NCBI GenBank assembly: GCA_002698425.1
Contig: NZXU01000052.1
Coordinates: 1-64,000, forward strand
Direction of reading: 5' to 3'
Origin: Ahrensia sp.
GTDB lineage: Bacteria; Pseudomonadota; Alphaproteobacteria; Rhizobiales; Rhizobiaceae
DNA: 64,000 nt
The position numbers and the translations under genes were made by a program. Below, one piece after another: positions 7,799 through 49,300 of the stretch; the first letter of the stretch is position 1; every line of letters starts with the position of its first letter. The notes under the pieces were generated by a model. The model was not told where the DNA came from and did no database searches. It was given only the letters and a program-made list of their open reading frames with translations.

Positions 7799-10700
7799 AT
7801 GCACGACAGGCACATGAATCCCGGTCAGGAGCCCGCTTCCAGGCGCTCCCAGAACATGACGCTCGACAAGCTCGACGAGGCGCTGTCCAATCTCGAAAGA
7901 CGGATGGGCATCAATTCGGCCGCCCGCGCGCCGCGCCCGGCGCCGCAGCGCGACGACGACGTCTCCGCCATCCGCGCCCGCCAGGAAGCGCTTTCGCACA
8001 GGGAAGCGCTCTCGCATCGCGACGATTACGCCCGGCCCTACAGGCAGGCCCCGCGCGGCGGCTACCAGGCCCCGGGACCCGATGCCTCCGCGCTGCACGC
8101 CGAACTCGCCGTCATGCGCGAGGAGCTCAACCGCGAAATGTCCTCGACCATCGCCGCACAGTTCGGCGGCATCCGCGAGGAGCTGAAGGCGCTCTATCAT
8201 CGCGGCGCCGGGGTTTCGCCGGAAGATCTCGCCGACGGTTTCAGCCGCGTCACCCGCGAACTCGGCCTCGTCGCCTCGCGCGTCGAAAACAGCGACATGG
8301 GCTCGCTGCGCGCCGAGGTCGAGGAACTGAAGGGCCACATCGCCTCGCTCGCCCGCGAGGACACGCTGCGCGACATGGCCGAGCGCTGGTCGGTCATCGA
8401 GCGCGAGATCGGCGCGCTGCCGCAGGCGCTTGATTCGCGCGCCGAACTGAACGCGGTGGCGGACCGGATCGCCGAACTCGGCGCGGCGCTCAGCGACATG
8501 CCGAGCTCGCAGTCGATCGGCGCGATGGAAAACCAGATGCGCGCGCTTGCCGAGGCCGTCGAGGGCCTCGCGTCGCAGAACGCGTCGATTTCGCCCGAGC
8601 ACCTCACCGCCATCGAGGACCGCCTCGACGAGGTCACCAGGGCGATCGTCTCCATTTCGGTTTCCGCCCAGCCGCAGGAATTCGACACCGCGCCCTTCGA
8701 CCGCATCGAGGCGCGTCTCGCGACGCTGGCCGGCCAGTTCGAGCAACAGAGCCGGGCTCCCCAAGCCGGTGCAGTCGAACAGCGGCTGACGGAAATCTCC
8801 GCCCGGCTCGACGCGCTGCATGAATCGACCGCGGCCGCCCCGGCCCACAACGAGGCGTTCGAAACGGTCGCGCAGCGTCTCGACGAACTGACGCGGCGCA
8901 TCGACAGCGCCCCCGCCGGCGGGTCCGGCATCTCCGACGGCGTGCTCGAAGGCCTCGACGCACGGTTCCGCGACATCGCCAGCCGCCTCGAATCGCAGCA
9001 GACCTCGCTGCAGGAAAACGGCAAGCAGATGCTCCAGTCGCTGGACCAGCGAATGGAGGAGCTGGCGCAGCGCATCGAGGAGAACGAAGCCGAATCCGCC
9101 GCCATGCCGAGCTTCGATCACATGGAGCGGCGCATCGAGGAAATCGCCCAGATGCTGACGGCGGGCGACGGCCTGTCGCCGGTGGCGGCGGCCCAGCCCG
9201 ACGCCCAGATGCTGGATACCCAAGTGCTGGAAGGCCTCGAGGCGCAGATCGCCGCGCTATCGGAAAAGCTCTCCACGGTCGCCGCACCCGCGCTTGACTA
9301 TGGCCCCGTCGCCGATCTGGCGCCCCGCCTTGCCGCGATCAGCGATCAGCTGGCGAACGGCCGCGAGGACATGGTCGCGCTCGCCCGCCAGGCCGCCGAG
9401 GAAGTGGTCGCGAAACTCGCCGGCGGCGCGTCGAAGGAACAGAAGCAGATGCTGTCGCAGCTTGCCGGCGATCTGCGCTCTCTCGAGGAACTCGCCCGCA
9501 ATTCCGACGATCGCAACAGCCGCACCTTCGAGGCCATCCACGACACGCTGGTCAAGGTCGCCGAGCGGATCGCCGGGCTGGAGATGAGCATGCGTTCCGG
9601 CGACGAGGCCCCGGCGCCGCGCTTCGCCCGCGAGGACGCCGAGCATGCCTCGCCGCCGCAGCGCATGGCGGAGACGCCGAGCGCGCCCGAGATGCCGCGC
9701 AAGCCGCAGGCGGCCCCGAAAGCAGAGCCCTATGAGCCGCCCGCCGAAGAGGCGCAGGACGAGCCGGCCGAGGCCGCAAAGACGCATATCGAGGATGCGC
9801 CGCCGGTCGATTTCGCCGCCGGGGAACAGCCGCGCGCCAGGCAGCAGTCGCGGCGGGTGACGCGGCAGGGGATCACGCCGGCGGAAGCCGCCGCCATGGC
9901 GGCGCGCGCCGCGCTGGGCGACGACGCCGCCGACGAAGAGGCCGATCCGGCCGAAGCCGTCGCCGCGGAGGCCGCGAAGGCCGACGCCAAGCCGTCGAAG
10001 GGTTTCCTGAGCGGGCTGCGCAGATCCATCCGGCGCGGCGGCAAGGACGAACCTGTCGAGCCGGTGGTCGAACCCGAGGAGCCCGCCGTCTTCGGCAAGG
10101 CCGCGGACGCGTCGCAAAAGCCGCTTGAACTGGCCGACGAGCCGCTCGAGCCGGGCTCCGGCGCGCCGGATCTCGCCGAGATCATGAAGCGGGTGCGCGC
10201 CGAACGCGCCGGCCCCGCAGCCGCGCAGGGCGACGCCGCCGCCGACGATGCCGGCAAGTCCGATTTCATCGCCGCGGCCCGCCGCGCCGCCCGCGCCGCC
10301 GCCGACGAGGTGGCCGTTCCCGACCGTAAGAAGGGCGAGGGCAAGGCCTCCGGCAAGGGCGGCATGCTCGCCTCGCGCCGCCGTCCGCTGATGCTGGCCG
10401 CGGGCGCGATCCTGCTCGCCGTGATGGCGATCCCGCTGGCGCGCGGCTACCTGTTCGATCGCGGCGGCAGCCCGGCCGAGGTGGCCGAAACCGCCAAGCC
10501 GATGGTCATGGACGAGCCCGCCCGGGCCGATCTTGGTGCCGGCGACGTCGCCGCCGTGGAGACCGCCGACGAGACGCCGGCCGCGCCGGTGCGCATGGTC
10601 GATACGCCGTCCGACGAGATCACGGCGGCGCTGCCGGCCGAGCCGCAGAGCCTCGACGCAGCGCCGGACGGCGCCGGCGATGTCGCGATGGATGCCGGCT

Positions 10701-11704
10701 CCGACATCGAGATGGCCGCCGAAGATGGCGGCGAGGCGTCCGACATCGACATGGCTTCGTCGCCCGACATGGCGTCCGCCGACGAGGCCGGTGCCGACGA
10801 GTCGTTCCAGCAGATCACCCTTGCCGACATTCCCGGCGAAATCGGCCCGGTGGCGTTGCGCGAAGCGGCTGTTGCCGGCGACGCCAAGGCGCTCTTCGTC
10901 ATCGGCGACCGGCTGATGGGCAAGGCGCCCGGAGACCCCGCCGGCGACATGAAGGCGGCGGCCCGCTGGTACGAGATGTCGGCCGAACTCGGCTTCGCGC
11001 CGGCGCAATACCGCATCGGCAACGCCTATGAGAAGGCCATGGGCGTCGACCGTGATATCGACGCGGCCAAGTCCTGGTATCTGGCCGCCGCCGAGCAGGG
11101 CAACATCAGCGCCATGCACAATCTGGCGGTGCTTTACGCCACCGAGGTCGACGGTTCCCGCGACATGGAAGAGGCCGTGCGCTGGTTCAACGAGGCCGCC
11201 GATCACGGCGTCACCGACAGCCAGGTCAATCTCGGCATCCTCGCGGCGCGCGGCGAAGGCGTGCCCCAGGATCTCGCCGAATCCTACAAGTGGCTGGCTC
11301 TGGCCGCCAAGGCCGGCGACAAGGACGCGGGCGCCAAACGCGACGAGGTCGCTGGCTTCATGCGGCCCGACCAGCTGCAGACGGCGCGCGACGCGGTCGA
11401 CCTGTGGAAGGTCAAGCCGGTCGACGCCGCCGCCAACGCCATCGAGGCGCCCGAGGCGTGGAAGACCGGCGGCGAAATGACCGCCTCGGCGCCGATCTCC
11501 GGCGAGGACATGAAGAAGGCCATCCGCAACATCCAGGCCATCCTCAACAACAACGGTTACGACGCCGGCACGCCGGACGGAATCATGGGCGCGCGCACCC
11601 GCAACGCCATCATCGAGTTCCAGAAGGCGAACGGCCTCCTGCCCAGCGGCGAGGTGGACCGGGCGCTTGTCGACAAGCTGTTGGAAGTCAACAAACAATC
11701 CTGA
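7799..11704 (+). CDS. podJ: PodJ-like polar localisation protein (coiled coil, TM, Sel1 repeats, peptidoglycan-binding domain)
   Basis: Protein of about 1301 residues with the architecture of PodJ, the polar organelle scaffold of Caulobacter and rhizobia. Residues about 15-620 are rich in heptad-like helices (LDKLDEALSNLERRM and many RLDEL, RIEE and RIAEL blocks), then comes an acidic Ala/Pro-rich linker. One membrane segment lies at about 862-884 (LMLAAGAILLAVMAIPLARGYL). The periplasmic part has Sel1/TPR units at about 1013-1205 (AARWYEMSAELGFAPAQYRIGNAYE, AKSWYLAAAEQG, AVRWFNEAADHG) and a C-terminal peptidoglycan-binding domain at about 1234-1298 (ILNNNGYDAGTPDGIMGARTRN). The ATG at 7799 was chosen; a GTG at 7697 is in frame, and later ATGs at 7814 and 7856 are possible. 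It probably marks a cell pole and links it to cell-wall and division proteins. Confidence 0.85.
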   Translation: MHDRHMNPGQEPASRRSQNMTLDKLDEALSNLERRMGINSAARAPRPAPQRDDDVSAIRARQEALSHREALSHRDDYARPYRQAPRGGYQAPGPDASALHAELAVMREELNREMSSTIAAQFGGIREELKALYHRGAGVSPEDLADGFSRVTRELGLVASRVENSDMGSLRAEVEELKGHIASLAREDTLRDMAERWSVIEREIGALPQALDSRAELNAVADRIAELGAALSDMPSSQSIGAMENQMRALAEAVEGLASQNASISPEHLTAIEDRLDEVTRAIVSISVSAQPQEFDTAPFDRIEARLATLAGQFEQQSRAPQAGAVEQRLTEISARLDALHESTAAAPAHNEAFETVAQRLDELTRRIDSAPAGGSGISDGVLEGLDARFRDIASRLESQQTSLQENGKQMLQSLDQRMEELAQRIEENEAESAAMPSFDHMERRIEEIAQMLTAGDGLSPVAAAQPDAQMLDTQVLEGLEAQIAALSEKLSTVAAPALDYGPVADLAPRLAAISDQLANGREDMVALARQAAEEVVAKLAGGASKEQKQMLSQLAGDLRSLEELARNSDDRNSRTFEAIHDTLVKVAERIAGLEMSMRSGDEAPAPRFAREDAEHASPPQRMAETPSAPEMPRKPQAAPKAEPYEPPAEEAQDEPAEAAKTHIEDAPPVDFAAGEQPRARQQSRRVTRQGITPAEAAAMAARAALGDDAADEEADPAEAVAAEAAKADAKPSKGFLSGLRRSIRRGGKDEPVEPVVEPEEPAVFGKAADASQKPLELADEPLEPGSGAPDLAEIMKRVRAERAGPAAAQGDAAADDAGKSDFIAAARRAARAAADEVAVPDRKKGEGKASGKGGMLASRRRPLMLAAGAILLAVMAIPLARGYLFDRGGSPAEVAETAKPMVMDEPARADLGAGDVAAVETADETPAAPVRMVDTPSDEITAALPAEPQSLDAAPDGAGDVAMDAGSDIEMAAEDGGEASDIDMASSPDMASADEAGADESFQQITLADIPGEIGPVALREAAVAGDAKALFVIGDRLMGKAPGDPAGDMKAAARWYEMSAELGFAPAQYRIGNAYEKAMGVDRDIDAAKSWYLAAAEQGNISAMHNLAVLYATEVDGSRDMEEAVRWFNEAADHGVTDSQVNLGILAARGEGVPQDLAESYKWLALAAKAGDKDAGAKRDEVAGFMRPDQLQTARDAVDLWKVKPVDAAANAIEAPEAWKTGGEMTASAPISGEDMKKAIRNIQAILNNNGYDAGTPDGIMGARTRNAIIEFQKANGLLPSGEVDRALVDKLLEVNKQS

Positions 11705-22384: not shown

Positions 22385-24106
22385 ATGAAAGCTTTTGCCG
22401 ATCTCCTCGACCGGCTTGTCCTGACGCCTTCGCGCAATGCCAAGCTGAAGCTGCTGACGGATTATCTCGCCGCGACGCCGGACCCGGACCGCGGCTACGC
22501 CATCGCGGCGATCACTCGCGATTTGGACATCCTCTCGGTCAAGCCGGCGATGATCCGGGCGCTGGTTTCCGAGCGCGTCGACGAGGTGCTGTTCGGCTAT
22601 TCCTACGATTTCGTCGGCGATCTGGCGGAGACGGTGAGCCTGATCTGGCCGGCGCCGGAACCCCCCTCTGTCGCCTCCGGCGACATCTCCCCCGCAAGGG
22701 GGGAGAGTGGCGGGATGCTGGCAGATGGGGCTCCAGTCTCCACCCTTGCGGGGGAGATGTCCGCGCAGCGGACAGAGGGGGGGCCGTCGGCCACTCCGAC
22801 GCTGTCGCAGATCGTCGAAACCCTGCAAACTGCCTCGCGTTCCGACGGGCCGAAGCTGGTGGAGCGCTGGCTGGACGATCTCGATTCCTCCGGACGCTAC
22901 GCCCTGTTGAAGCTGATCACCGGCGGCATGCGCATCGGCGTGTCATCGCGGCTGATGAAGCAGGCGCTCGCCGATTACGGCGGCAAGGACGTAACCGAGA
23001 TCGAGGAACTGTGGCACGGGCTCGCGCCGCCCTATCTGCCGCTGTTCGCATGGCTCGACGGCAAGGCGGACAAGCCCGAAAACCTTGCCGCCGCGCCGTT
23101 CCGGCCGGTCATGCTCGCCAATCCGACCGATCTCGACGAACTCGCCCGGTACGAGCCGGCCGACTATCTCGCCGAATGGAAATGGGACGGCATCCGGGTG
23201 CAGGTGACGGCGGAGCGGGGTGTATGTCGTATCTATTCGCGCACCGGCGATGACATTTCCGGCGCCTTTCCGGACTTGCTCGAGGCGATGGAATTCGACG
23301 GCGCGATCGACGGCGAATTGCTGGTCGGCCATTTCGAGGCCGGCGCGATCCGCACTGGCACTTTCTCCGACCTGCAGCAGCGGCTGAACCGCAAGACCGT
23401 GCCGGCGAAATTGCAGAAGCAATACCCGGCGGTGCTGCGTGCCTATGATTTGCTGCAGGAGGGCGCGGACGATCTGCGGCCGCTCGCTTTCGAGGCGCGG
23501 CGCACGCGGCTGGAAGGCTTTGTCGAGGCGCTGCCGAAGGAGCGGTTCGACCTGTCGCCGCTGGTGCCTTTCGAAAGCTGGGAGGAAATCGCCGCGAAGC
23601 GAAACGCCTCGCCCGATCCGGTGATCGAGGGGCTGATGCTGAAGCGCCGCGATTCCGCCTATGTGCCGGGCCGCCCGAAAGGGCCATGGTTCAAGTGGAA
23701 GCGCGATCCCTATCTGGTCGACGCGGTGCTGATGTATGCCTAGCGCGGCCATGGCAAGCGGTCGAGCTTCTATTCCGACTACACGTTCGGTGTCTGGACC
23801 GGGCCCGCGGACGACGCGCAGCTCGTGCCCGTCGGCAAGGCCTATTTCGGCTTCACCGACGAGGAACTGAAACAGATCGACAAATTCGTCCGCGACAACA
23901 CGATCGAGCGCTTCGGCCCTGTCCGCTCGGTGCGCGCGGAGCCGGATCACGGCCTTGTCCTCGAAGTCGCCTTCGAAGGCCTGAACCGCTCGACCCGCCA
24001 CAAATCCGGCGTCGCCATGCGCTTTCCGCGCATCTCCCGGCTTCGCTGGGACAAGCCCCCGCATGAGGCCGACCGGCTGGAAGCGCTTGAAGCGAAGCTA
24101 GATTAG
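22385..24106 (+). pseudogene. ATP-dependent DNA ligase, interrupted by an in-frame amber codon
   Basis: Companion ligase of the ligase-associated repair set. The adenylation motif is EWKWDGIRVQV (Lys266), followed by YSRTGDDISGAFPDL, EFDGAIDGELLVG, VIEGLMLKRRDSAYVPGR and WFKWKRDPYLVDAVLMYA. At 23741-23743 TAG occurs where the family usually has Gln (MYAQRGHGKR). The same frame then continues for 121 more codons with an intact OB-fold region (SFYSDYTFGVWTGPADDAQLVPVGKAYFG through RFPRISRLRW) to the normal stop. One C-to-T change therefore splits it into 452 + 121 residues. A 120-bp palindromic element (22662-22781) is also inserted in frame near residues 93-133. The truncated product keeps the nucleotidyltransferase domain but loses the OB fold. 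Readthrough or a sequencing error remain possible. Confidence 0.88.
22662..22781. repeat. REP-like palindromic element inserted in frame in the ligase gene
   Basis: Two 45-base arms (22662-22706 and 22737-22781), nearly exact inverted complements, surround a 30-base loop. Arms begin CCCCCTCTGTCGCC and end GCAAGGGGGGAGA. This resembles the CTCCCC-rich palindromes dispersed in rhizobial genomes. At 120 bases it preserves the reading frame and encodes about 40 residues (SVASGDISPARG through GEMSAQRTEGG) that do not look like ligase sequence. Confidence 0.85.
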
Positions 24107-24416
24107 CGGCGACGCGGTAAATAAAGATCACCCTTGTGCGAGACAACGGGCTCACGATGATCAAGTCGATTATGCAGACATTGATTGTCTATATATGCCA
24201 ATAAACATATTATAAAACCTAATAATATAAAATATAATAGTCATTATATTGAAATAATTAAAGTTTAGATTAGAATGATAGGTCTTCTATATGATGATAT
24301 CGCTATCTTGCATCGTTGATGATCCGTTGTCGGGTTGTTTGACTCAACGTCAGTTCAAATGCATTATCACTCTATTGGGGCTAAATCGCCTGCAAGGCAG
24401 GATTTAGGGGGTTGGG
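24107..24416. other. AT-rich intergenic region with 5' UTR hairpin
   Basis: About 310 bases, strikingly AT-rich between 24180 and 24300, in contrast to the GC-rich surroundings. No ORF is supported. Just before the next gene CTAAAT-CG-CCTGC / GCAGG-ATTTAG (24381-24407) forms a hairpin whose 3' arm touches the GGGGG ribosome binding site (24407-24411). The base composition suggests imported DNA. Confidence 0.6.
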
Positions 24417-25055
24417 ATGACTTCGCTGTTTCGAATGGCTCGCTTGGGCGTGGCCGGGGTTGGCGTCATGGCCGCATGCGCCGGTAGCGCGTCTGCCGCG
24501 ACCGTCGGATTTACGCTGGTAATTTCCGGTGCTGCCAACACGCCGAGTATGCTGCTCACGAATGACAGCGATTTGGCGTTACTTACGGGCTTCAGCCTGA
24601 CGATCGGCGACACAGACTACAATTTCGACGCATTCAATTCGTTGCCGTCAAACCCGGCCGGCGGTACGGCCGTGGGGAATACGCCCGATACAAATAACTT
24701 GGGTGCAATCCGATCCGACCTGATCGATATCTCCTACACCGGCTTCAACCCCGGAGAAACGTCGTCCTGGATCGTGGATGTCGATGTGGATAGCGATAAT
24801 ACCGTCGAAGATTATCGAACGGTGTTGTTAAACAATGGTTCGGTCGCGAATGCCGTGGCAACAGCCCTCTTCTCTGGAGGTGGCGTTCTTAGTTTGACGC
24901 TTTCGGATGGCGGCGCGAGCCAGCCATCATATACATTTAGTGCATCAAGCGTACTGTCGGAAGTGCCCTTGCCGGCGGCCTTGCCTATGTTGGCAAGCGC
25001 AATGGTTTTGGCGGGTTTTGCGGCCCGCCGAAAGAAGCATGACATCGGTGCATAA
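24417..25055 (+). CDS. VPLPA-CTERM sorting-domain protein (exosortase substrate)
   Basis: Secreted protein of 212 residues with a signal peptide (VAGVGVMAACAGSASAA), a beta-rich, Asn/Asp/Gly/Ser-rich body, and a C-terminal sorting signal: the VPLPA motif (VPLPAALPMLASAMVLAGF), a membrane helix and the basic tail AARRKKH. Such tails are cleaved by an exosortase (EpsH/Xrt family) and the proteins are usually tied to exopolysaccharide export. No exosortase gene is in this window. Base composition is AT-richer than the surroundings. The gene lies between two copies of the ligase 3' end. The body is not recognised. Confidence 0.85.
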   Translation: MTSLFRMARLGVAGVGVMAACAGSASAATVGFTLVISGAANTPSMLLTNDSDLALLTGFSLTIGDTDYNFDAFNSLPSNPAGGTAVGNTPDTNNLGAIRSDLIDISYTGFNPGETSSWIVDVDVDSDNTVEDYRTVLLNNGSVANAVATALFSGGGVLSLTLSDGGASQPSYTFSASSVLSEVPLPAALPMLASAMVLAGFAARRKKHDIGA

Positions 25056-25372
25056 ATTCCCGCACTCCTGACATCCGGCGGGATTTCACGAGGCCGACCG
25101 GCTGGAGACGCTGGAAGCGATGCTAGATTAGCGGCGACGCGCCGGCTCGACCGGCCGCCGAGGCTCAGATTCGGGCAAGCTACAAATGATAGGGACTGGG
25201 TGTCCGGCGGGGCTCGGATCATCGATCGTGATCCCGGCGTCCGGGCGGACCGGTAGCCGGTTGCGCATGGCCAGCGGGTGTTCGTTCTGTCTCGGGGCAG
25301 TGACGCGCCGCTTCGTGTGGCAGGCGGCAGACAGATACGCTGCGAATTCCGACCGATCGAGGGCCGCCAACC
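25056..25372. other. Intergenic region upstream of the octad-repeat gene
   Basis: About 317 bases. They contain the ligase 3'-end copy (25090-25141) and presumably the promoter of the octapeptide-repeat gene. I found no convincing promoter boxes or other gene. Confidence 0.5.
25090..25141 (+). pseudogene. Second copy of the ligase gene 3' end
   Basis: These 52 bases match 24065-24116, the last codons of the ligase plus its TAG and following bases, at 48 of 52 positions. The copy is not attached to a ligase ORF. It marks a duplication or gene-replacement scar on the far side of the VPLPA-CTERM gene. Confidence 0.8.
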
Positions 25373-28300
25373 GTGACTTCCGTCCTGTCTTCCCTGACCA
25401 CGCAGCAGATCAGGAACCTGTCCACGGCGACTGTCGCCTCCTGGACGCCCGAGGACCTCGCCGAGCTTACCGAGCAGCAGATCTCCGTGCTGACCGCCAG
25501 CCAGGTCGCGGCGATCGAGACCGACGGCTTCGCCGGCATGACGACGTCGCAGCTTGCGGCGATCGCGCCGAGGTCGATGGTCGGCCTGACGCTGGACCAG
25601 CTGAGTGTCCTGACGCCGGACGAGGTTTCGGGCCTGGGAACGAGCCAGGTTGCCAGCCTCGGCGCGGACCAGCTGACCGCGCTCACGAGCGAGCAGACCG
25701 AGGCGTTTACGCCCGAGCAGGTGGCGCGGCTGAATTCGGTCCAGATCGCAGCGCTCGACCCCGAGGACATCGCGACCTTCTCGACCGCCGACATTGCGGC
25801 GATTACCACCGGCGCGATCAGGGGATTGACCGCCGACCAGATCGGCGTGCTGTCGCTCGACCAGTTCGGCGCCCTGGAGCCGCGCCAGATCGCGGCGCTC
25901 AGGACAACCCAGATCTCCGCGATCACGCCGTCGCAACTCGCCGCGATGTCGACGGCGCAGATCGGCGCGCTGAGCCCCAGCCAGATCGGCGCGCTGAGCG
26001 ACGAGGCCTTCGCCGCCCTCTCGCCCGACCAGGTCGCCTCGTTCGGCCCGCGCGCCATCCCCGGCCTGTCCCCGGAGCGGATCGCCGGCTTCAGCACCGA
26101 GCAGATCCAGGCCCTGACGCCGTCGCAGATCGGTTACCTGAATTCCAGGCAGGTCACGGCACTGGGCACGGCGCATCTCGCGTCGATGTCGCCCGAAGGC
26201 GTCGCTGCGATCGCCACGAGAGCCGTTCCGGGCTTCACTGCCGAGCAGGTCGCCTCCCTGAGCACCGAGCAGTTCGCGGCGCTGAAACCCTCGCAGATCA
26301 GCGCGATGCGGCCGTTCCAGTTCGCGGCGATGACCCCGTCGCAGATCGGCTCCATGGACAGCGCACAGCTCGGCATATTGAGCGCGACCGATATGAGGGC
26401 CTTGACCACCGACGCCGTCGCCGCGCTCTCCGCCGATCAGATCGCCGCGCTCAATCCCGGCGCCTTCCGAGGGCTGGGCGAAGACCAGATAGCGGTGCTC
26501 GCGACCGATCGGATCGAAGCCTTGACGACGACCCAGCTCGGCCGCATCAGCCCCCTCCAGCTTGCCTTCTTCAGTACCGAGCAGCTTGCGGCCCTGTCGC
26601 CTGAGAAGATCTCTTCGCTGGACCCGAGGGCGATGGTGAGGCTTTCGCCCGACGCCGTCGCCGGCCTGTCGCTCGACCAGCTCGCGGCGCTCAAGCCGAG
26701 CCAGGTCGCGCAGCTTCGACCCGACCAGGTCGCCGCTTTGTCCGTTGTGCAGACGGAATCCTTCACGACGTCCCAGATGGCCGTGCTCAGCGGCTCGCAG
26801 CTTGCCGCGCTGGGCCTCGAAAACATCGCCGCGCTGTCGGAAGACCAGATCTCCGCGATCAATCCCCGCTCGATATCGAGCTTTTCCGGTCACCAGATCG
26901 CCGCATTGAGCAATATCCAGATCGCGGCCCTTTCGATCATGCAGGTCGGCGCGCTGAAGATGGGCCAGACCGATGTCCTCAGCGCGGAGGCGATCGAGAC
27001 CTTCTCGCCCGCCAAGATCGCCGCGATGAACGTGTCGGGCGTTCGCGGGCTCTCGGCGGAGGTCTTTGCCTCCTTATCGCCGGAACAGTTCGCGGCGCTG
27101 ACGACCGGGCAGATCGGCGGCCTGAGAGCGCACCACATGGCGGCGCTGACGCCGTCCGGCATCGAGCATTTCTCGACGCAGCAGATCGCCGCATTCGACG
27201 CGGCGCAGGTCGCCGAGCTGGGAACCGAGACACTCGCGGCGTTTTCGACCGACCAGATCGCCGCGCTGAGCACCCGGGCCGTATCCGGCCTGACGGAGGC
27301 GCAGATCGCCGCGCTGAGCGCGGACCAGGCGGAAGCGTTCACCACCTCGCAGGTGGCGAGGTTCGGCGCGACGCAGACCGGTGCGCTGAGCACCGCCAAT
27401 TTCGCCACCTTCTCGGCTGCCGATCTGGCGGCGATGAGCGGCGCGGCGATCGGGGCCCTGTCGGTCGACAGCATCGCCTCGCTGACCATGGACCAGATCG
27501 CCGTCTTGAAGACCACCCAGGTCGCGGCCCTGAAGCCGGAACAGGTCGCCGTCCTGTCGATGACGCAGATCGATGCGCTGACGCAAGGCCAGATCGGCGC
27601 CTTGTCCGCCAACCAGGTCGCCGCTTTCAGCCCGGAGACACTGGCGGCCATGTCTGCGGAGCAACTCGGCTCGCTCAGCGTCGGAGCCATGTCCGGCCTG
27701 ACGCCCGATCAGCTCGCATCCCTGGATGCGAGCCAGTTCGAGGCCTTTTCCGACAGGCAGATCGGCGGGCTGGGCGCCGAGCAGCTGAATGCGCTCGGCT
27801 CGACGATGCTGGCGAATTTCACCGCGGACAGGATCGCGGCGATCAGCGTCGGGGCGATTTCTGGCCTCTCGGCCGACGCGCTCGCCTCCTTCGACGGCGA
27901 CCGGCTCGCCGCGCTGAGGCCGGCCCATATCGCGGCGCTGACAGCGGAGCAGGTCGCGGTCCTGTCCCCGGCCCAGGTCGAGCAGCTTTCGACCGACCAG
28001 ATCGCCGCGTTGTCCGCGGAGCAGCTCGGCGCCATTACGACCGACGCGGCCGGCATGCTGACGGCGGAGCAGATCGCGGCGCTGAAACCATCCACGGTCG
28101 CGGGCTTCACCGACGCGCAGATCAGGAATTTGAGCACGATCCAGTTCGACGCGCTGTCGGCGTCCCAGATCGGCGCCCTGACCGCGACGCAGGTCGAGGC
28201 GATCACCGCCGCCAACCTGGCGACCCTGTCGCCCGCCGACATCGGCGCGATCTCCGACCAGGCGATATCCGGGCTCACGGCCGCGAGTATCGCCGCGCTG

Positions 28301-28804
28301 GATCACGAACAGATCGGCGGGCTGAAATCCACGCAGATCGCCAAGCTGACCTATTTCCAGATCAAGGCCTTCGCCAGCGACCAGCTATCGGTGTTCACCA
28401 CGGCGCAAATCGGCGCCCTGAACGGATTGCAGGTCTCGGCGCTCGGGTCCGAGGCGGTTCCGCTGCTGTCGACCGGGCAGATCGCCGCTATAGACCCGAT
28501 GTCTGTCCCCGGCCTGACGACCGCGCAGATCGAGGCCTTCACGCCGATCCAGGCCGAGGCGCTGACCTCCGCCCAGGTCGCCAGGCTGACCTTCGCCCAG
28601 GTCGACGCCTTCGACGTCGAAGACCTCGCCGCCTTCTCGGCCGCGGATATCGCGTCGCTCACCCGCTCTGGCATAAACGGGCTGTCCGAGAGCGACATCA
28701 TGAGCCTGCGGCGCGAGCAGCTCGACGCTTTCACCGCCGAGCAGTATCAGGTGATGGATTCGCAAACGATCTGGGCGATCGCCGCCGCCTACGAGGCGGC
28801 GTAG
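25373..28804 (+). CDS. Octapeptide-repeat protein of unknown function (142 uninterrupted octads)
   Basis: Protein of 1143 residues: a 7-residue leader then exactly 142 octads with no insertion or deletion. The consensus is L-[ST]-x-x-Q-[IV]-[AG]-A, e.g. LSTDQIAA, LTPSQIGA, FTTSQVAR. Position 1 is L/F/I/M, position 6 I/V/L, and position 5 is Gln in about 85 octads. Octads lacking Gln recur in blocks every 17 octads (16-18, 33-35, 51-53, 67-70, 84-87, 101-104, 118-121, 135-138), giving a 136-residue super-period. No signal peptide, no cysteine, two tryptophans. Positions 2-5 ([ST]-P-[ED]-Q) look like helix N-cap boxes, so a compact solenoid is plausible. The start is GTG 25373; no nearby ATG exists. 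Similar LTTAQ-type octads occur in other alphaproteobacterial proteins, but I know no function. It converges with the GNAT gene 7 bases away. Confidence 0.85.
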   Translation: MTSVLSSLTTQQIRNLSTATVASWTPEDLAELTEQQISVLTASQVAAIETDGFAGMTTSQLAAIAPRSMVGLTLDQLSVLTPDEVSGLGTSQVASLGADQLTALTSEQTEAFTPEQVARLNSVQIAALDPEDIATFSTADIAAITTGAIRGLTADQIGVLSLDQFGALEPRQIAALRTTQISAITPSQLAAMSTAQIGALSPSQIGALSDEAFAALSPDQVASFGPRAIPGLSPERIAGFSTEQIQALTPSQIGYLNSRQVTALGTAHLASMSPEGVAAIATRAVPGFTAEQVASLSTEQFAALKPSQISAMRPFQFAAMTPSQIGSMDSAQLGILSATDMRALTTDAVAALSADQIAALNPGAFRGLGEDQIAVLATDRIEALTTTQLGRISPLQLAFFSTEQLAALSPEKISSLDPRAMVRLSPDAVAGLSLDQLAALKPSQVAQLRPDQVAALSVVQTESFTTSQMAVLSGSQLAALGLENIAALSEDQISAINPRSISSFSGHQIAALSNIQIAALSIMQVGALKMGQTDVLSAEAIETFSPAKIAAMNVSGVRGLSAEVFASLSPEQFAALTTGQIGGLRAHHMAALTPSGIEHFSTQQIAAFDAAQVAELGTETLAAFSTDQIAALSTRAVSGLTEAQIAALSADQAEAFTTSQVARFGATQTGALSTANFATFSAADLAAMSGAAIGALSVDSIASLTMDQIAVLKTTQVAALKPEQVAVLSMTQIDALTQGQIGALSANQVAAFSPETLAAMSAEQLGSLSVGAMSGLTPDQLASLDASQFEAFSDRQIGGLGAEQLNALGSTMLANFTADRIAAISVGAISGLSADALASFDGDRLAALRPAHIAALTAEQVAVLSPAQVEQLSTDQIAALSAEQLGAITTDAAGMLTAEQIAALKPSTVAGFTDAQIRNLSTIQFDALSASQIGALTATQVEAITAANLATLSPADIGAISDQAISGLTAASIAALDHEQIGGLKSTQIAKLTYFQIKAFASDQLSVFTTAQIGALNGLQVSALGSEAVPLLSTGQIAAIDPMSVPGLTTAQIEAFTPIQAEALTSAQVARLTFAQVDAFDVEDLAAFSAADIASLTRSGINGLSESDIMSLRREQLDAFTAEQYQVMDSQTIWAIAAAYEAA
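25394..28801 (+). repeat. Tandem octapeptide array with 17-octad super-repeat
   Basis: Octad n begins at residue 8n. Between octads 16 and 138 equivalent positions 17 octads apart share type. Examples: 28/45/62/79/96/113/130 (x-x-P/T-R/G-A-I-x-G), 26/43/60/77/94/111/128 (D or E at position 4, mostly no Gln), 21/38/55/89/106/123 (often K or R at position 2), 34/51/68/85/102/119/136 (S-[PA]-x-[DKR]-[IL]). The super-period is 136 residues or 408 bases. The first 15 octads follow the pattern only partly. Confidence 0.85.
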
Positions 28805-28811
28805 AGCGCTT

Positions 28812-30035
28812 TCAGGCCGATTTCTCCGCAGCGCCGGAGATGCGCTCGGCGATCGGCGCCAGCCGGGTGCGCAGGCCGAGCGGCGCGGCCTGCATCATCG
28901 ACTTGGCCGCCGGCCGGATCGAGCGGCTCCACACGGAGGCAAAGGCCTTGCCGCGCAAGGTCGGCTCCAGCCGGTAGGTCTTCAGGCTGGTCGACATGTT
29001 GGACCAGCCGGATTTGTAGGCCGCCGGCTCGCCGAGGAGGTCGTAGGCCTCGATGCCCTGTTCGAGGCACCAGCGAATGGCTTCCTCCAACTGCACCTTG
29101 CCCGGCGAATAGTCACGCAGTTCCCAGTCGAAGGAGCCGAGATAGGAATAGAAGCGCCCGTACCAGCGAAAACCGATCTCAACCGCGATCGGCCGTCCGT
29201 CGAGCGTGATCGCTGAGGCCAGCGCGCCATTGCCGGTTTCGGGATCATGCGGCAGCGCGCCGAGGAAGTCGGCGAAATCGGCGCGGTTGACGACGCGTGT
29301 CGGCCGGCCCGTTTCCTGCAGCCATATGCGCTTCATCTCGACGCCGGCCCGGACCAGTTCGCCGAAGCCCGCTTCGCCGCCATGCCTCACCACGTGCTCG
29401 ATCCGGCCGAGGCCGTCGAGCGCGTTGCGCTTGCGCTTGCGGCCCTTGCGCACCGACCGGGTAAGCTGGCGGTTGTAATCGTCGAAATCCTCGAACTGCG
29501 TCAGGTCCATCCAGGCGCTCTTGCCGGCGCACTCGATTTGGCCCGCGCCGTCGAAGGCCGAAGGCAGCTCCTCGCCGCCGGCCGGAACGTCGGCGAAACT
29601 GACGAGATCGGGATTTTCAGCGGCGACGAGCCGGGAAAGGCATTCCTCGATGGTCGCGCGCAGCGGCCCGTCGGCCTGCAAATCCGGGTCTACGATCATG
29701 TTGCCATACTGGCCATGCGGCATGGTGAGCGGCAGCATGCGGCGCACGGTCCAGGAGGAGCCGGTCAGCATCAACGGCCAGACGAGAACGAGCCGGTCGC
29801 GCGACCGGGCGGTGACGATGCGGATGCCGCAGGGGTCGGCGCCGTCCTGATTGAAACGGCACCATGTCGAGCACCAGTCGAAGCTCTGGAAATAGGTCAG
29901 CGGATCGGCGGCGCGCTGTTCGAGCGCGCGCCATTCTTCCTCCAGCGACGCCAGCCCGTCCGCGGACCGGAGGATGTCGACACGTATGCCGCCGGCGGGC
30001 CGGTTTTCGTCTGTCGTCGCGGCAGGCGGCGGCAT
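28812..30035 (-). CDS. GNAT-family acetyltransferase, CelD/BcsL-like
   Basis: Protein of 407 residues with the two-lobe GNAT layout of CelD/BcsL: LEEEWRALEQRAADPLTYFQSFDWCSTWCRF near the N-terminus and the acceptor lobe LDGRPIAVEIGFRWYGRFYSYLGSFDWELRDYSPGKVQLEEAIRWCLEQGIEAYDLLGEPAAYKSGWS in the C-terminal half. Members are linked to polysaccharide or cell-surface acylation, but targets are mostly unknown. The ATG at 30035 has AAGGA upstream. It starts 30 bases after the JmjC-like gene on the same strand, so they form an operon. It ends 7 bases from the convergent octad-repeat gene. Confidence 0.85.
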   Translation of the reverse strand: MPPPAATTDENRPAGGIRVDILRSADGLASLEEEWRALEQRAADPLTYFQSFDWCSTWCRFNQDGADPCGIRIVTARSRDRLVLVWPLMLTGSSWTVRRMLPLTMPHGQYGNMIVDPDLQADGPLRATIEECLSRLVAAENPDLVSFADVPAGGEELPSAFDGAGQIECAGKSAWMDLTQFEDFDDYNRQLTRSVRKGRKRKRNALDGLGRIEHVVRHGGEAGFGELVRAGVEMKRIWLQETGRPTRVVNRADFADFLGALPHDPETGNGALASAITLDGRPIAVEIGFRWYGRFYSYLGSFDWELRDYSPGKVQLEEAIRWCLEQGIEAYDLLGEPAAYKSGWSNMSTSLKTYRLEPTLRGKAFASVWSRSIRPAAKSMMQAAPLGLRTRLAPIAERISGAAEKSA

Positions 30036-30065: not shown

Positions 30066-31007
30066 TTACTTGGCCAGTTCGAAGGTGTCGATGTCCGAGA
30101 AGCCGCCGGGCGCCTTCGGGTCGACCCTGAAGTCGATCTTGAACGCCATCTTGTTCTTCTTGCGGAAACCCAGCTGGCGGTGCAGGCCGGCGATCGCGAG
30201 CTTGGCCCAAAGCGCCGGCCCGGAGGGCGTGATCGACGGGGTGATGCCCAGATTGCGGCGCAGGATGCCGTTCGCATAGACATTCGCATAGTGGTTGCGC
30301 AGCGGCGCGGTCCAGTGCTCCGTCGTGAAGGAGACGTTGACGCAATCGCCGTTGACGACGCGATGCGGCGAGTGAATCGGCCAGTGCAGCATCTCGCCGG
30401 CCTTCAGGTCGACGATCTCGGCATAGTCGTCGAACCAGGGCTCATAGGGCGTGTCCTGCTCGTCCGCCTCGTTGAGGACGATCTTCTCCATCGCCTCGGG
30501 ATGAAGGAAGGGCGCGGAATTGGGATACATGTAGACCCGCTTGGAGCCGCGCAACTGCCAGAGCGACTGGCCGGGAATATCGCAATGGTAATAGACCTGC
30601 ACCTTCGGCGAGGAGATCAGGATGCTCATCTTGCGCTTGAAGGTCTCGAGGCCCGGAACATGCTCCTCGAACTCGCCATAGAGCTGGTCGAGCACCTCGC
30701 GATAGGCGGGATCGAGCTCGGCCACCTGCTGGATCAGCACCCAGATATTGCCGTTGCGGACGGCGTCCATGACCTCGCGTCCTGACGCACCGGCAAAATC
30801 GCCCTCGCGCCATGTGCCGGGCGCATGGCGGTCCGTGTTCATCGTGTTGACGTGATAATATTCGCGCGGAACGCGGTCGATCAGGCCGGCCAGCGCATCG
30901 TCCGAGAAAAGCGGCGATTCATGCAGGCGGTGCTGCAGGTGCACGATATGCTTGCCGTACAGCGCGGAGTGTTTGGGTTCCCAGTTCGTAATAATGGATT
31001 GGGCCAA
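30066..31007 (-). CDS. JmjC/cupin-like oxygenase-fold protein
   Basis: Protein of 313 residues with a double-stranded beta-helix region: VQVYYHCDIPGQSLWQLRGSKRVYMYPN, then GEMLHWPIHSPHRVVNGDCVNVSFTTEHW. The HxD pair (H-C-D) and the distal His resemble the iron ligands of JmjC-type Fe(II)/2-oxoglutarate hydroxylases. Basic residues follow at the C-terminus. The start is TTG at 31007: GGAGG (31016-31020) lies 8 bases upstream and MAQSIITNWEPKHSALY reads well. It is first gene of an operon with the CelD-like GNAT. The substrate is unknown; protein hydroxylation is possible. Confidence 0.8.
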   Translation of the reverse strand: MAQSIITNWEPKHSALYGKHIVHLQHRLHESPLFSDDALAGLIDRVPREYYHVNTMNTDRHAPGTWREGDFAGASGREVMDAVRNGNIWVLIQQVAELDPAYREVLDQLYGEFEEHVPGLETFKRKMSILISSPKVQVYYHCDIPGQSLWQLRGSKRVYMYPNSAPFLHPEAMEKIVLNEADEQDTPYEPWFDDYAEIVDLKAGEMLHWPIHSPHRVVNGDCVNVSFTTEHWTAPLRNHYANVYANGILRRNLGITPSITPSGPALWAKLAIAGLHRQLGFRKKNKMAFKIDFRVDPKAPGGFSDIDTFELAK

Positions 31008-43210: not shown

Positions 43211-43312
43211 GTGACCAACCTGCTGGCGAGGGTGGACGTTTTGATTCGACATGCTGTTGCCGAGTGTCGGCCTGCTGTGATTGCTGAACGGGGAGGTGCT
43301 GCGGGCGGATCA

Positions 43313-46300
43313 ATGCGGCGTGCGTTGTCGCACGTCTCCGTCCTTTCCGTGCTTGTCGCCGCCTTCGGAGTGCCGCTGCCCTACCTAGCGAGCTCCGGCT
43401 CCGCCCGCGCCGAGAACGAGGGCTGCGTCGTCAACGGCTCGACCGCCGACTGCCCCGACGTGCCCCAGGCCGGTATCCGATACACATCCCACGTCACCAC
43501 CGTCACCGTGTCGGGGTCGACCCCCGGCGTGACCGTCGTCGATCCGTCGAGAATCGGCATCGAGCTGGATCAGACCGGAGCCGACGGCAGCGACGGCATT
43601 TCGACGACGTTCAGCAACACCGTAACCGTCAAGATCGACGGCAATGACACGGAAGTCATCGCCGACAGCGACAACCAGCCGGTTCTCTCGGATGGTTTCT
43701 ACATCATCGTGGTTGGCGACAACGACTTTTCCATCAACGGCACCAGCTATACCGGCGACGAGTTGGCGCAATACCTTGCCGGAACGCCCGACGATCCCGG
43801 CGAAACGGTCCATGCAAGCCTTACCCTGACGCATCGGGAACCGTATCCGGGCAATGACGGCGGGCTCTCGACCACGAACGCCTACGGCGTCTCCGTCACG
43901 TCTTATGGCGGCAATGGCGGCAATGGCAGCTGCCATTCGGTGCTCGTCTACACCTGGTGCCATGACGGCCATCACGGCGGGAACGCCGGCTCGGTCGCGA
44001 TCAACAACAATGGCGTGGTTACCGTCGACGCGACGAGCGACAAGCGCTACGGGATCAACGCCATCAGCAAGGGCGGCGAGGGCGGCGACGGCGGCGGCGC
44101 CTTCGGCCTGTTCGCCTCCAAGGCCGGCCATGGCGGCGCCGGCGGCACCGGCGGCGAGATCACCATCAATCTCGGCATCCATTCCGACATCACCACCCAT
44201 GGCAAGCTCGGCCACGGCGTCTTCGTCCAGAGCCTCGGCGGCAATGGCGGCACCGGCGGCGAACCGTCGGGCATCGCGGCGCTCGGCGACAAGGGCGGCC
44301 AGGGCGGCAATGCCGGCGCGGTGGTGGTGGCGAATGCCGGCTCCATCCTGACCACGGGCGAAGCCGCCTATGGCATCAACGCGTCGAGCATCGGCGCGGG
44401 CGCCGGCAGCGGCAGCAGTTCCGGCGGCATCTATGCGGTCGGCGGCGCGGGCGGCGGCTCTTCGACCGGCGGCGTGGTCACGGTGCGCAACAGCGGCTCC
44501 ATCGAGACGACGAACAGCGACGCCTTCGGCGTTTTCGTCCAGTCGGTCGGCGGCGGCGGCGGCAATGGCGGCAGTTCCGGCGCGCTCGTCTCCGTCGGCG
44601 GCCATGGCTCGTCCGGCGGCAACGGCGGGAAGGTCGAAGTCTACAACAGCGGCTCGGTCAAGACCGGCGGTGATGCGGGAGGGCCGGGCGACGGCTCGGT
44701 CGGCGTCTTCCTGCAATCGGTCGGCGGCGGCGGCGGCAATGGCGGCAACGCCTATTCGGGCGGTCCGAGCATCTCGGTCGCGGTCGGCGGCAGCGGCGCG
44801 ATCGGCGGTGAGGGCGGGACGGTCTCCTACAACCCGCTCGCCGATGGCGATACGGTCGCCGATCTCGCCAGTTCCTCCGTCGTGACGACCGGGGACCGTT
44901 CGCACGGGATCCAGGCCCAGTCGGTCGGCGGCGGCGGCGGCAATGGCGGCTTCGCGGTTGCCGGCAGCGTCGGCGTCGGCACGCTCAACGCAAGCGTTTC
45001 GGTCGGCGGCAGCGGCGCCAAGGGCGGCGCGTCCAACGCGGTCACGGTCAATCAGAACGGCCTCGTCGAGACATCCGGCGACCAGTCGATCGGCATCTTC
45101 GCCCAATCGGTGGGCGGCGGCGGCGGTAATGGCGGCGGCTCCGTGGCGGCGTCCGTGGGCGGCAGCTACACCGTCGGGGTCGCGGTGGGCGGCAGCGGCG
45201 GCACCGGCGGCGCCAGCAACACCGCGACCGTGAACGCCGCCGGCTCCGTGATCACCAAGGGCGATCTGTCCCATGCGATCCTGGCGCAATCGATCGGCGG
45301 TGGCGGCGGCAATGGCGGCTTCTCGGCGGCGGGCGCGGTCGGAGGCATGTCCGGCACGGTCTCGCTCGGCGGCAGCGCCTCGGAAGGCGGCGACGGCAAG
45401 ACCGTCGTGGTCAACACCCAGGCCGGCGACGAGTCCGGTTCCGTCGTCTCGACGGCGGGCGACGGCTCCGTCGGCGTCTTCGCGCAGTCGATCGGCGGCG
45501 GCGGCGGCAATGGCGGCGTGGCGGGCTCGCTCTCGGTGGGCGGCGGCGGCATCGGCGTGTCGCTCGGCGGCACCGGCGGTGCAGGCGGCAAGGGCGGGAC
45601 GGTCACGGTCGGCAACGCCACCGACGTGACGACGCGCGGCAAGAACGCGACGGCCGTCCTCGCCCAGTCCATCGGCGGCGGCGGCGGCAATGGCGGCTCT
45701 TCGCTGTCCGGCTCCGGCGGCGTGATCGGTGTCTCGGTCGCGGTGGGCGGCAAGGCCGGCGGCGGCTCCAATGGTGGCACGGTCAATCTTACCAACCACG
45801 GAAACATAACCACCGGCTATTCGGTCGACTCGGTCGTCGACGGAGAGACGGTCACCGAACTCTTCGGCAGCAAGTCCTACGGCATCTTCGCGCAATCGGT
45901 CGGCGGCGGCGGCGGCAATGGCGGCTATGCGATCTCCGGCGCGCTGGGCGTGTCCATCCCGGACATGCCGGGCGGCGCCGCGGCGATCTCGGTCGGCGGC
46001 AAGGGGGGCGGGGCCAGCACCGGCGGCACGGTCACGGTCGACAATTACGGCGGCATCGAAACCTTCGGCCTCGATTCCCATGCGATCTACGCCCAGTCGG
46101 TGGGCGGCGGCGGCGGCAATGGCGGCTTTGCCGGCAGCGTCTCTATGACGGTGGGCTCCGGCGCGTCCGTCGGCGTTGCGGTCGGCGGCAGCGGCGGCGG
46201 CGGCGGCGACAGCGGAACCGTGACCGTCACGGCCGGCGCGGCGGACACGGCCGCGACGATCGTCACCCACGCGGACGGCGCGGACGGCATTCACGCCCAG

Positions 46301-49300
46301 TCGGTGGGCGGCGGCGGCGGCGATGGCGGCTTCGCCATGTCGGGCGCCTTCGGCTTTGGCGGCGAGGTGTCCGTCGATGTCTCCGTGGCCATCGGCGGCC
46401 CGGGCGGGCAGGGCGGCAAGGGCGGCGTCGTCACCGTCACCGCCTATCAGGACATCACGACCCATGGCGACAGCTCCATCGGCGTCATGGCGCAATCGAT
46501 CGGCGGCGGCGGCGGCAATGGCGGCATGGCCGTGAGCGGAACCCTGGCCTTCTCGGAATCGGCCGGCGCAACGGGCGTATCCGTCGGCGGGGCTGGCGGA
46601 GACGGCAATACCGCGAATGCGGCGACCGTCGACAATTACGGCGCGATCACCACCTGGGGCCGGGACTCCATCGGCATCCTCGCCCAGTCGATCGGCGGAT
46701 CGGGCGGCAATGGCGGCCTTGCGGTCGCCGCGCAGATGACCGGAACCTCGAATATCGGCGCGACGGTCGGCGTCAGCATCGGCGGCGGCGGCGGAACCGG
46801 CAACAGCGCAGGCATGGTCACGATCACCAACCACCAGCTGGCGGCGATCCTGACGAATGGCTACGGCAGCCACGCGATCAAGGCGCAGTCCATCGGCGGC
46901 GGCGGCGGCAATGGCGGTCTCGCCGTGACGGCGCAGCTGGGCAAGTCCTCGGGGACGGAAGACGAGGAATCGAAGACGCTGAATGTCGGCGTCGCGGTCG
47001 GCGGAGCGGGCGGCGACGGCGGTTTCGGAAACACGGTCACCGTCACCAATGACGGCGGGATCACGGCCAAGGGCACCGCCGCGACGGGCATTTTCGCGCA
47101 ATCGGTCGGCGGCGGCGGCGGCGACGGTGGCGGCGGCGTCAATGGCGTCGGCATGCTGACGGATTCCGCCAATGAATCCTCGCGGTCCGTCGTCGCCGAT
47201 GTGACGATCGGCGGCAATGGCGGCGACGGAAACTATGGCGGAGAGGTCGACGTCACCAATTCCGGCAACGTGAAGACCGAGGGCGATAGCGGCCACGGCA
47301 TCCAGGCCCAGTCTGTCGGCGGCGGCGGCGGCGTCGGTGGACGGGCCAATACCTACCAGGTGATCATCACGAAGCCCGAAGAGGGCCAGACAGCGAACAA
47401 GAACAACCTTTCGCTGGCCGCGACCATCGGCGGCAATGGCGGCACCGGCAGTCACGGCGGCAAGGTCAAGGTCGACAATTCCGGCGAGATCGAAACCTCG
47501 GGCGACACCGCCCACGGCATCTACGCCCAGTCGGTGGGCGGCGGCGGCGGCGATGGCGGCAACGGCACCGTCGGGCTCGGCGGGATCCTGAACCTGAAGG
47601 GCGCCGACTCCATCATCACGTCGAAATACGGGTCGCTGAAGACCTACAAGAACATCCAGGTCGCGGTCGGCGGCTCGGCCGGCTCGACGGGCGATGGCGG
47701 GGTGGTCGAGGTCGACAATTCCAACCACGTCACGACGCATGGCGCGAACTCCATCGCCATCCTGGCGCAGTCCGTCGGCGGCGGCGGCGGCATCGGCGGC
47801 ACTGGCGTGTCGGGCGCGACCGGGCTGTTGGGGCTCGGCGGCGCCGGAGGCTCGGCGGGCAATGGCGGGATCGTGACCGTCACCCAGACGGGCGAGGCCA
47901 TTGTCGAGACATTCGGCGTGGCCTCCCACGGCGTCTTTGCACAGAGCGTCGGCGGCGGCGGCGGCATGGCCGGCAGCGTCAACAGGGTGATGACGTCGGC
48001 CATGAAGGAGGGGCCGGTCAACGTGCCGGCGATGAATATAGGCGCCGGGCTCGCCATGGGCCGCAGCGGCGGCAATGGCGGCAGCGGGGCGAAGGTCGAG
48101 GTCGATTTCGACGGGATGATCGTCACCCATGGCGACAGCGCCGCGGCGATCATGGCGCAGTCGGTCGGCGGCGGCGGCGGCGTCCTCGGCGATCTCGGCA
48201 ACGTCACCGATGTCCTGAGCTATCAGCTGGGCAGCGCCGGCGACGCCGGCAATGCCGGTGTCGTGACCGTGGACCTGACGGGAACCGTCAAGACCGCCGG
48301 CAACAGCGCGACCGGCATTTTCGCCCAGAGCGCCGCGGGCACCGCCGGCGGCGCGCACACCGGCGAGGCCGGCAATGTGAATGTGACGGTGAACGGTTCG
48401 GTCCTCACCGCGCAGATCCTCGACACGGAGGACGACGGAACCCTCGAGGCCCCCAAGCGCGGTCTCGGCGCTGTCGGCATCCTCGCGCAGAGCGTCGCGG
48501 TCGATAATGACAAAAACGGCGACATCACGGTTACGATCAACGGCGCGGACACGGTGGTCGCCGGCGGCCGCAGCCTCGTCGTGGACGACAAGCACACTTT
48601 CCTGGGCGTCGGCGTCTGGTTCACCGACGGCGACGCCAACACGCTGGCCAATCACGGCCATATCACCACCTTCGACGGCGTCGACGACGGCTACGCGATC
48701 TTCGCCAGCGGCAGCGACGCGACCCATCTCGGTGGCTCCGAGACGGTCACCAATGCCGGCACCGTCACCGGCTCCTTCGATCTCGGCACGGGCGTCAACA
48801 GCTTCACGAACCAGGCGGGCGCGACGCTCAATTTCGGCAAATATGCTTTCGCCGGGGCTGGCGGAACGGTCTCGAACAGCGGCTGGATGTCGCCCGGCGG
48901 TGACGGCAAGGTCATGACGACCAGCATGACGGGCGACTTCACCCAGACCGCGACCGGTGTCTACGGCGTCGATCTGGACCTGTCGAAGACATCGCTGGTT
49001 ACCGTTTCGCCGCTCATGCCGGCCGAGGCCGACACGCTGATGTCGGCTGACACGATCGCTTTCGACGGCGCCGTCCGCCTGTCGCTTCTCAATATCGGCA
49101 CGGCCAAGCCCGGTCAGCACACGGCGCTCCTCGCGCGCTCCGAAATATCGCTGACGGACAACGGCCTGGTCCTCGACGCGCCGGTCAGCGCGGTCGCCAA
49201 GTATTCGCTTTCGACCAATGCGACCGACCTTATCCTCGATTACGGGATCGATTTCGCGCCGGCTGGCCTGGACGCCGACGATGCGGCGGTCGGCGAATAT

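Follow-up and report, generated by a model that had tools for sequence, protein, structure and literature searches.

In the 64,000-nucleotide stretch of contig NZXU01000052.1 (assembly GCA_002698425.1, Ahrensia sp.) that was analyzed here, hereafter the window, a gene on the forward strand at 25373–28804 encodes a protein built almost entirely of 142 eight-residue repeats (octads). We consider it rather probable that this protein is a stiff alpha-screw rod of the ALTTAQ type, striped by charge and lengthened by whole turns of the screw, and that it serves as a spacer or adhesin.

The open reading frame (ORF), stop included, begins with GTG at 25373, downstream of a purine-rich GAGGG, and the GTG context is also kept in the orthologue at a related locus, L001. 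Its 1143 residues divide as 7 + 142 × 8 with remainder 0: a leader of seven residues (25373–25393) is followed by the octads in a single register (25394–28801). Identity autocorrelation along the protein is 0.26–0.28 at lags 8, 16, 24, 32 and 40, and 0.04–0.09 at the remaining lags from 1 to 40. Position 1 of the octad is L in 92 of the 142 repeats, position 2 is S or T in 95, position 5 is Q in 85 and position 6 is I, V or L in 116, while A occupies position 7 in 70 and position 8 in 72. A position-specific scoring matrix derived from the query's own octads gave a single unbroken run of 141, the final octad being too diverged to count. The protein contains no cysteine, and its serine plus threonine content is 19.2%. 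A first-pass annotation of this DNA had proposed these coordinates, this consensus, and a seven-residue leader followed by 142 octads without indel; the ORF translation, the column preferences and the autocorrelation at lag 8 bear it out in each respect.

The repeat is of a catalogued kind. Pfam family PF20080 (ALTTAQ_rpt) matched at E 7.8e-152 with 493.1 bits (curated cut-off 26.4) in 40 stretches, and a phmmer search of Protein Data Bank (PDB) sequences returned 9zem, 'HeliScrew4', a solved chain of 120 residues, at E 1e-20 (E 2.6e-30 with a profile of four slices). HeliScrew4, which from its name and regularity we take to be a designed protein, has octads of the query's kind; it differs in being short and regular, and the two were compared by sequence only. 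These matches contradict the earlier statement that no known domain could be recognized. AlphaFold2 modeled octads 35–68 with 34 helices in 34 octads and no strands (predicted local distance difference test score, pLDDT, 95.0; predicted template modeling score, pTM, 0.84), the helix starting near position 3 of each octad, so that one short helix per octad is predicted. The first-pass annotation had also suggested a novel compact solenoid. A folded solenoid is what the model gives, and the fragment is not disordered; the profile search places the protein in a known family, although no described role for that family was found in the open PubMed Central (PMC) papers searched. Among the same papers, none on HeliScrew, ALTTAQ or PF20080 was found. 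No useful name came from NCBIfam or PHROGs (best PHROG 15773, function unknown), a plasmid search gave no near match, and a phage search gave weak matches in 2 of 50,697 records. CAAP1 (PF15335) reached 45.9 bits against 25 over the whole protein, yet no stretch passes singly, and we read this match as a cross-match of the octad repeats.

The spectrum of net charge per octad of the query peaks at 3.39 octads (power 29.0), whereas 2000 permutations reached 12.7 at most. As charge was sampled once per octad, the peak is distinct from the 3.6-residue periodicity within a helix. With 3.4 octads placed on each turn, the angles 180–360 degrees contain 76 of the 105 acidic residues versus 6 of the 43 basic ones, and the charge phase in successive thirds of the chain is −4, 22 and 29 degrees.

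The octads also follow a longer order. Octad–octad similarity rises over the permutation maximum (4.0, n = 200) at lags 17 (z 8.9), 34 (7.0), 51 (6.2), 68 (5.9) and 24 (5.6); at lags 7, 10, 27, 41, 44 and 58 it is raised (2.4–3.1) but stays under that maximum. Phase information at period 17 has a z of 14.6, and among periods 2–35 only 34 stands out besides. When octad 18 is taken as position 1 of the superperiod, few octads at superperiod positions 1 (1/9), 2 (2/9), 9 (1/8), 11 (1/8), 16 (1/8) and 17 (0/8) carry the glutamine of octad position 5, and most of those at 3–8, 10 and 12–15 do. On this phase, the chain divides into eight supermodules of 17 octads, which would make 5 turns each, and six final octads, all on the forward strand: octads 1–17 (25394–25801), 18–34 (25802–26209), 35–51 (26210–26617) and 52–68 (26618–27025), the last two being the halves of the modeled fragment, then 69–85 (27026–27433), 86–102 (27434–27841), 103–119 (27842–28249) and 120–136 (28250–28657), with octads 137–142 (28658–28801) as a cap-like C-terminal end. 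Recent duplication of 17-octad blocks was rejected. Codon identity at lag 17 is 0.603 versus an expected 0.548, with a nucleotide identity of 57%, and the supermodule copies are therefore old.

The same period was found in relatives. Two protein searches (the best 120 of 168 and the best 120 of 668) supplied 222 proteins, from which only runs of at least 20 octads were clustered, 145 segments from 126 proteins giving 84 clusters. The cluster average of net charge has its maximum at a period of 3.36 octads (z 21.6, against at most 4.6 in the null). Since neighboring octads alternate in some families, lags below 5 were excluded from the super-repeat analyses of the clusters and of the 17 further loci described below. 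A significant super-repeat was present in 29 of the 84 clusters, at lag 10 in 11, 17 in 9, 20 in 2 and 27 in 1. When screws of 2.5–5 octads per turn were compared, 3.40 fitted these 29 clusters best: the lags deviated from whole turns by 0.095 on average, against 0.253 in the null, and none of 5000 draws gave as low a value. Charge period and super-repeat length, as two routes, thus lead to the same value of about 3.4 octads per turn. As the query does, the PF20080 relatives carry the tandem eight-residue octad; they differ in that single-register runs among the best 120 of 168 reach at most 66 octads and in that 86 of those 120, counted by eye in a search limited in protein length, bear a further Pfam label beyond PF20080 and PF15335, whereas the query has octads only. 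Glutamine at octad position 5 alternates every second octad (period 2.0) in P0008, P0010, P0013, P0019, P0025, P0026 and P0029, which carry PF13205 labels. In P0017, P0047, P0050, P0057 and others, the octad arrays begin near the N-terminus, and the proteins have a calpain-like protease label (PF00648).

Proteins made mostly or nearly wholly of octads are found elsewhere in the class. In the class, 5 of 289 genomes have PF20080; in the order, 24 of 397 do, 23 of them over the cut-off. Of the first seven loci fetched, six have single-register runs of 182–389 octads; L106, with 18, was dropped from further analysis. The charge of these six giants has a peak at 3.41–3.45 octads, the top one in four and second to a 2.0 peak in the other two, and their top lags are 24 (L102, L103, L104), 62 and 31 (L105) and 10 (L101, L107). 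A further 17 loci, representing 17 of the 24 PF20080 genomes of the order, were fetched to test the expectation of 3.4, which had been fixed in advance; G414, G443, G491, G550, G558, G602 and G622, with 1–5 matches each, were left out, and charge peaks were searched at periods of 2.2–8 only. All 12 loci with runs of 118–424 octads peak at 3.37–3.44 (0/500 permutations in each case). Their top lags are 24 (9/12), 17, 34 and 55, with a mean whole-turn deviation of 0.059 at 3.4 (null 0.248, 0/5000 draws as low) and of 0.016 at 3.43. In the remaining five loci, runs of 21–31 octads have their highest peaks at 3.33–3.46, which are not significant at that level. The 142 octads of the query are thus not extreme, relatives of the same order reaching 424 in a single register. 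The alphaproteobacterial giants (L101–L105, L107 and 12 of L140–L156) resemble the query in consisting mostly or nearly wholly of octads, in a charge period of 3.37–3.45 and in super-repeats of near-whole turns; they differ in being mostly longer and in having mostly 24-octad (7-turn) super-repeats, whereas the query shares 17-octad (5-turn) super-repeats with L155.

L155 (genome G642) scored best against the query among the 12 giants and has 6 + 176 × 8 residues, with a start codon picked by us. Its N-terminus fits query octads 1–20 best at offset 0, and its C-terminus, which is similar to the cap-like end of the query, fits octads 123–142 at offset 34; the N-terminal stretch of the query, with W at octad 3, is also similar to the N-termini of L102 and L103. 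When the alignment was restricted to whole-octad gaps, 511 of 1136 residues were identical (45%), and the gaps were of 10, 7 and 17 octads, the first two lying 4 octads apart. The two proteins are therefore two supermodules, or 10 turns at the proposed pitch, apart. In this one relative pair, the length difference of 34 octads is built of blocks of 10, 7 and 17.

The gene is under purifying selection. With the neighboring DNA ligase as the scan query and the best 80 loci kept, the closest ligase locus, L001, belonged to a metagenome-assembled genome (MAG) labeled Ahrensia sp. SAT55 (G001; ligase 92% identical), followed by Oricola indica (83%), and L001 alone among the 80 had an octad array by octad score. 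Its orthologue likewise has 142 octads, and a position-by-position comparison of the equally long proteins gave 972 of 1143 residues identical (85%). Third codon positions differ by 22.5% and first and second positions by 8.4%. The ratio of nonsynonymous to synonymous substitution rates (dN/dS) is 0.24 overall, falling to 0.055 at the glutamine of octad position 5 and reaching at most 0.34, at positions 3 and 8. Equal length and this ratio support the earlier suggestion that the strict phase is held under constraint. Long antisense and other-frame ORFs overlap the octad ORF; they are most likely by-products, because the codon-position differences and dN/dS against L001 identify the octad frame as the coding one.

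These observations suggest the following mechanism. Each octad would form one short helix and a turn, with about 3.4 octads to a turn of the screw, so that 142 octads would make about 42 turns. Taking the helix packing distance as 0.9–1.0 nm per turn, we infer a stiff rod of roughly 40 nm. One of its faces would be acidic and the opposite face would bear most of the basic residues. Blocks of 7, 10, 17, 24, 27 and 31 octads would correspond to 2, 3, 5, 7, 8 and 9 turns, and as these are near-whole turns, the gain or loss of such a block would keep the faces of the rod in register and leave the acidic stripe untwisted. Rods may therefore change length by duplicating or losing such blocks, selection favoring steps most often of 3, 5 or 7 turns. 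ALTTAQ proteins in general would then probably be digitally extensible striped screws, their duplications limited to near-whole turns by the pitch of about 3.4, with the query (8 × 17 + 6 octads) and L155 (10 × 17 + 6) as two lengths of one design, perhaps set as a molecular ruler.

As to function, we infer a passive structural role, most likely that of a spacer or adhesin rod at the cell surface or beyond it, and with moderate confidence place such a rod outside the cell rather than inside. For a surface role, we count the giants of genomes G183 and G279, which lie near a transporter and HlyD, the labels PF00353 (RTX), PF05860 (haemagglutinin N-terminal) and PF13205 (Ig-like) on some other ALTTAQ proteins, and the lack of cysteine in the query. 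In G183 and G279, the neighborhood comprises HlyD, a type I ABC transporter, two GT41 (O-GlcNAc-transferase-like) genes and an epimerase (in G279 by similarity and scan), and in G211 a GT41 gene lies between two giants with an epimerase upstream (G183:C3 842500–854500, L110; G279:C31, L112; G211:C1 3719000–3752500, L116, L105 and L117). This suggests export and glycosylation for the giants of these three genomes, which may be glycosylated secreted rods.

Several observations weigh against the rod as we have described it, in its geometry or in its placement. The value of 3.4 octads per geometric turn is derived from periodicities of the sequence. The comparison of the model with known folds by VIA-align was only middling (best Z 7.2, root-mean-square deviation 10.8); the 50 best rows shown were mostly armadillo proteins, and 9zem was not among them. 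The charge spectra of L102 and L103 have a larger peak at 2.0 than at 3.42, and alternation of octads with period 2 occurs in many relatives and is strong for the glutamine of position 5 in the cluster average. A significant super-repeat is wanting in 55 of the 84 clusters; of the 29 that have one, 6 show lags of 6, 8, 15 or 18, which misfit 3.4, and P0008 and P0010 contribute two segments each. None of the nulls, which were made by shuffling octads or drawing lags, takes kinship into account. With respect to a surface role, no signal peptide was apparent in the query by eye (no dedicated test was made), and no secretion system was found among the 21 window ORFs scanned. Of 11 genomes searched, all but G001, the MAG of the orthologue, matched TIGR01843 (type I membrane-fusion protein) over its cut-off, and no GT41 was found in G001; the 10 neighbors of L155 that were scanned include neither type I secretion/TIGR01843 nor GT41. 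Type I export with GT41 as a general rule was accordingly dropped, as it did not extend to the query gene, and because of these absences in G001 and beside L155 only a passive rod is claimed.

Other explanations were weighed against this passive striped rod. The 17-octad order and the charge period might reflect ancestry only, by tandem duplication of a 17-octad block, with no geometry behind them. The slight excess of codon identity at lag 17 would agree with this, as would the top position of lag 17 in 9 of the 29 super-repeat clusters, since a 17-octad block could be old. We nevertheless think it unlikely: a period of about 3.4 octads is common to proteins with block lengths of 10, 17, 24, 27 and 31, the charge peaks lie near 3.4 both in the 84-cluster average and in all 12 long giants, and the copies are old by their nucleotide identity. 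A leucine-rich-repeat or low-complexity protein is hardly credible. Leucine-rich-repeat chains do make up most of the PDB sequence listings, with matches at E 6.5e-5 (phmmer) and 3e-8 (profile). Leucine-rich repeats have one beta strand per repeat, however, and the modeled octads 35–68 have helices and no strand, for which reason this class was rejected; the gene is also under constraint, and none of the listed Pfam matches (E 1 or better) is to a leucine-rich-repeat, armadillo or HEAT family. In PMC10035497, mesothelin is described as a compact right-handed solenoid of 24 short helices, alongside armadillo and HEAT repeats with units of about 30–40 residues and two or three helices. The query differs from such units in having one helix per eight residues, and mesothelin (PF06060) has no match in it among the same Pfam matches; its Z ties with those of the armadillo proteins in the fold comparison.

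Where the rod resides gives rise to two further alternatives. The protein could act in the cytoplasm, as a scaffold or ruler that binds basic partners through its acidic stripe, in keeping with the acidic face, with the lack of a signal sequence by eye and with the absence of secretion genes among the window ORFs scanned. This is the main alternative if the protein is intracellular, and we regard it as possible but less than likely, given that the RTX, haemagglutinin and Ig-like partners of other ALTTAQ proteins point outward and that no shared partner gene was seen. A secreted surface rod, exported by type I secretion and O-glycosylated on Ser/Thr by GT41, would accord with the genes near the giants of G183, G279 and G211 and with the 29–37% serine plus threonine of those giants. 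For the query, we find it improbable, as its own content is much lower, G001 has neither GT41 nor a TIGR01843 match over the cut-off, and no GT41 was found near giants L101, L104 and L107, nor in the scanned genes of these loci and of L155. The octad protein might instead work with the GNAT and Cupin_8 proteins encoded beside it, for example as a substrate that is acylated or hydroxylated. The three genes are neighbors both in the window and at L001, and a search of 12 other genomes, of which five belong to the same genus, found neither the GNAT nor the Cupin_8 of the query locus. This partnership is very unlikely, since Cupin_8 occurs in 113 of the 397 genomes of the order and shares only three, with weak cupin matches, with the 24 that have PF20080, and neither gene is among the 10 scanned beside L155. 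With cupins so common in the order without ALTTAQ, GNAT and Cupin_8 were rejected as general ALTTAQ partners, and no consistent partner gene of ALTTAQ genes was found across the loci compared.

By Pfam scan, the convergent neighbor of the octad gene is a GNAT gene (Acetyltransf_6; 28812–30035, reverse strand), its end separated by seven bases from the octad stop at 28804, and a Cupin_8 gene follows (30066–31007, reverse strand). The gene order in L001 is DUF4893, ligase, octad gene, GNAT and Cupin_8; in comparison, the window has an HNH-like gene and a PEP-CTERM-like gene in addition, both under the Pfam cut-off. The ATP-dependent DNA ligase (22385–24106), intact in L001 with 578 residues, is interrupted in the window by a frameshift or a sequencing error: its ORF ends at 23743 (452 residues), and the C-terminal part resumes in another frame from 23825. 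The 3′ end of the ligase recurs as a direct repeat of 55 bases (91%), at 24062–24116 and 25087–25141; its copies flank the PEP-CTERM-like gene (24417–25055), which has no match in L001, and the arrangement looks like an insertion or duplication scar. Elsewhere in the window, 43211–50356 encodes an autotransporter-like protein of 2381 residues that is rich in glycine (GGGGGNGG) and has no Pfam match at E 0.01, and 7697–11704 encodes one of 1335 residues that combines Sel1 repeats with a peptidoglycan-binding domain.

In summary, the kind of repeat is known, whereas the open PMC papers searched gave no description of an all-octad giant that combines whole-turn supermodules with a charge stripe, and the whole-turn lengthening and the charged stripe of such rods look new. 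To our knowledge, the octad is among the shortest units of a helical solenoid, and natural arrays of more than 400 units in one register would make an attractive stiff rod of programmable length for protein design. The helical symmetry of a repeat fold was here read from sequence alone, with charge period and duplication lengths in agreement, and a single structure could test the value that it directly predicts, about 3.4 octads per turn. If true, it would explain why super-repeats of 10, 17 and 24 units are common in this family and other lengths rarer.

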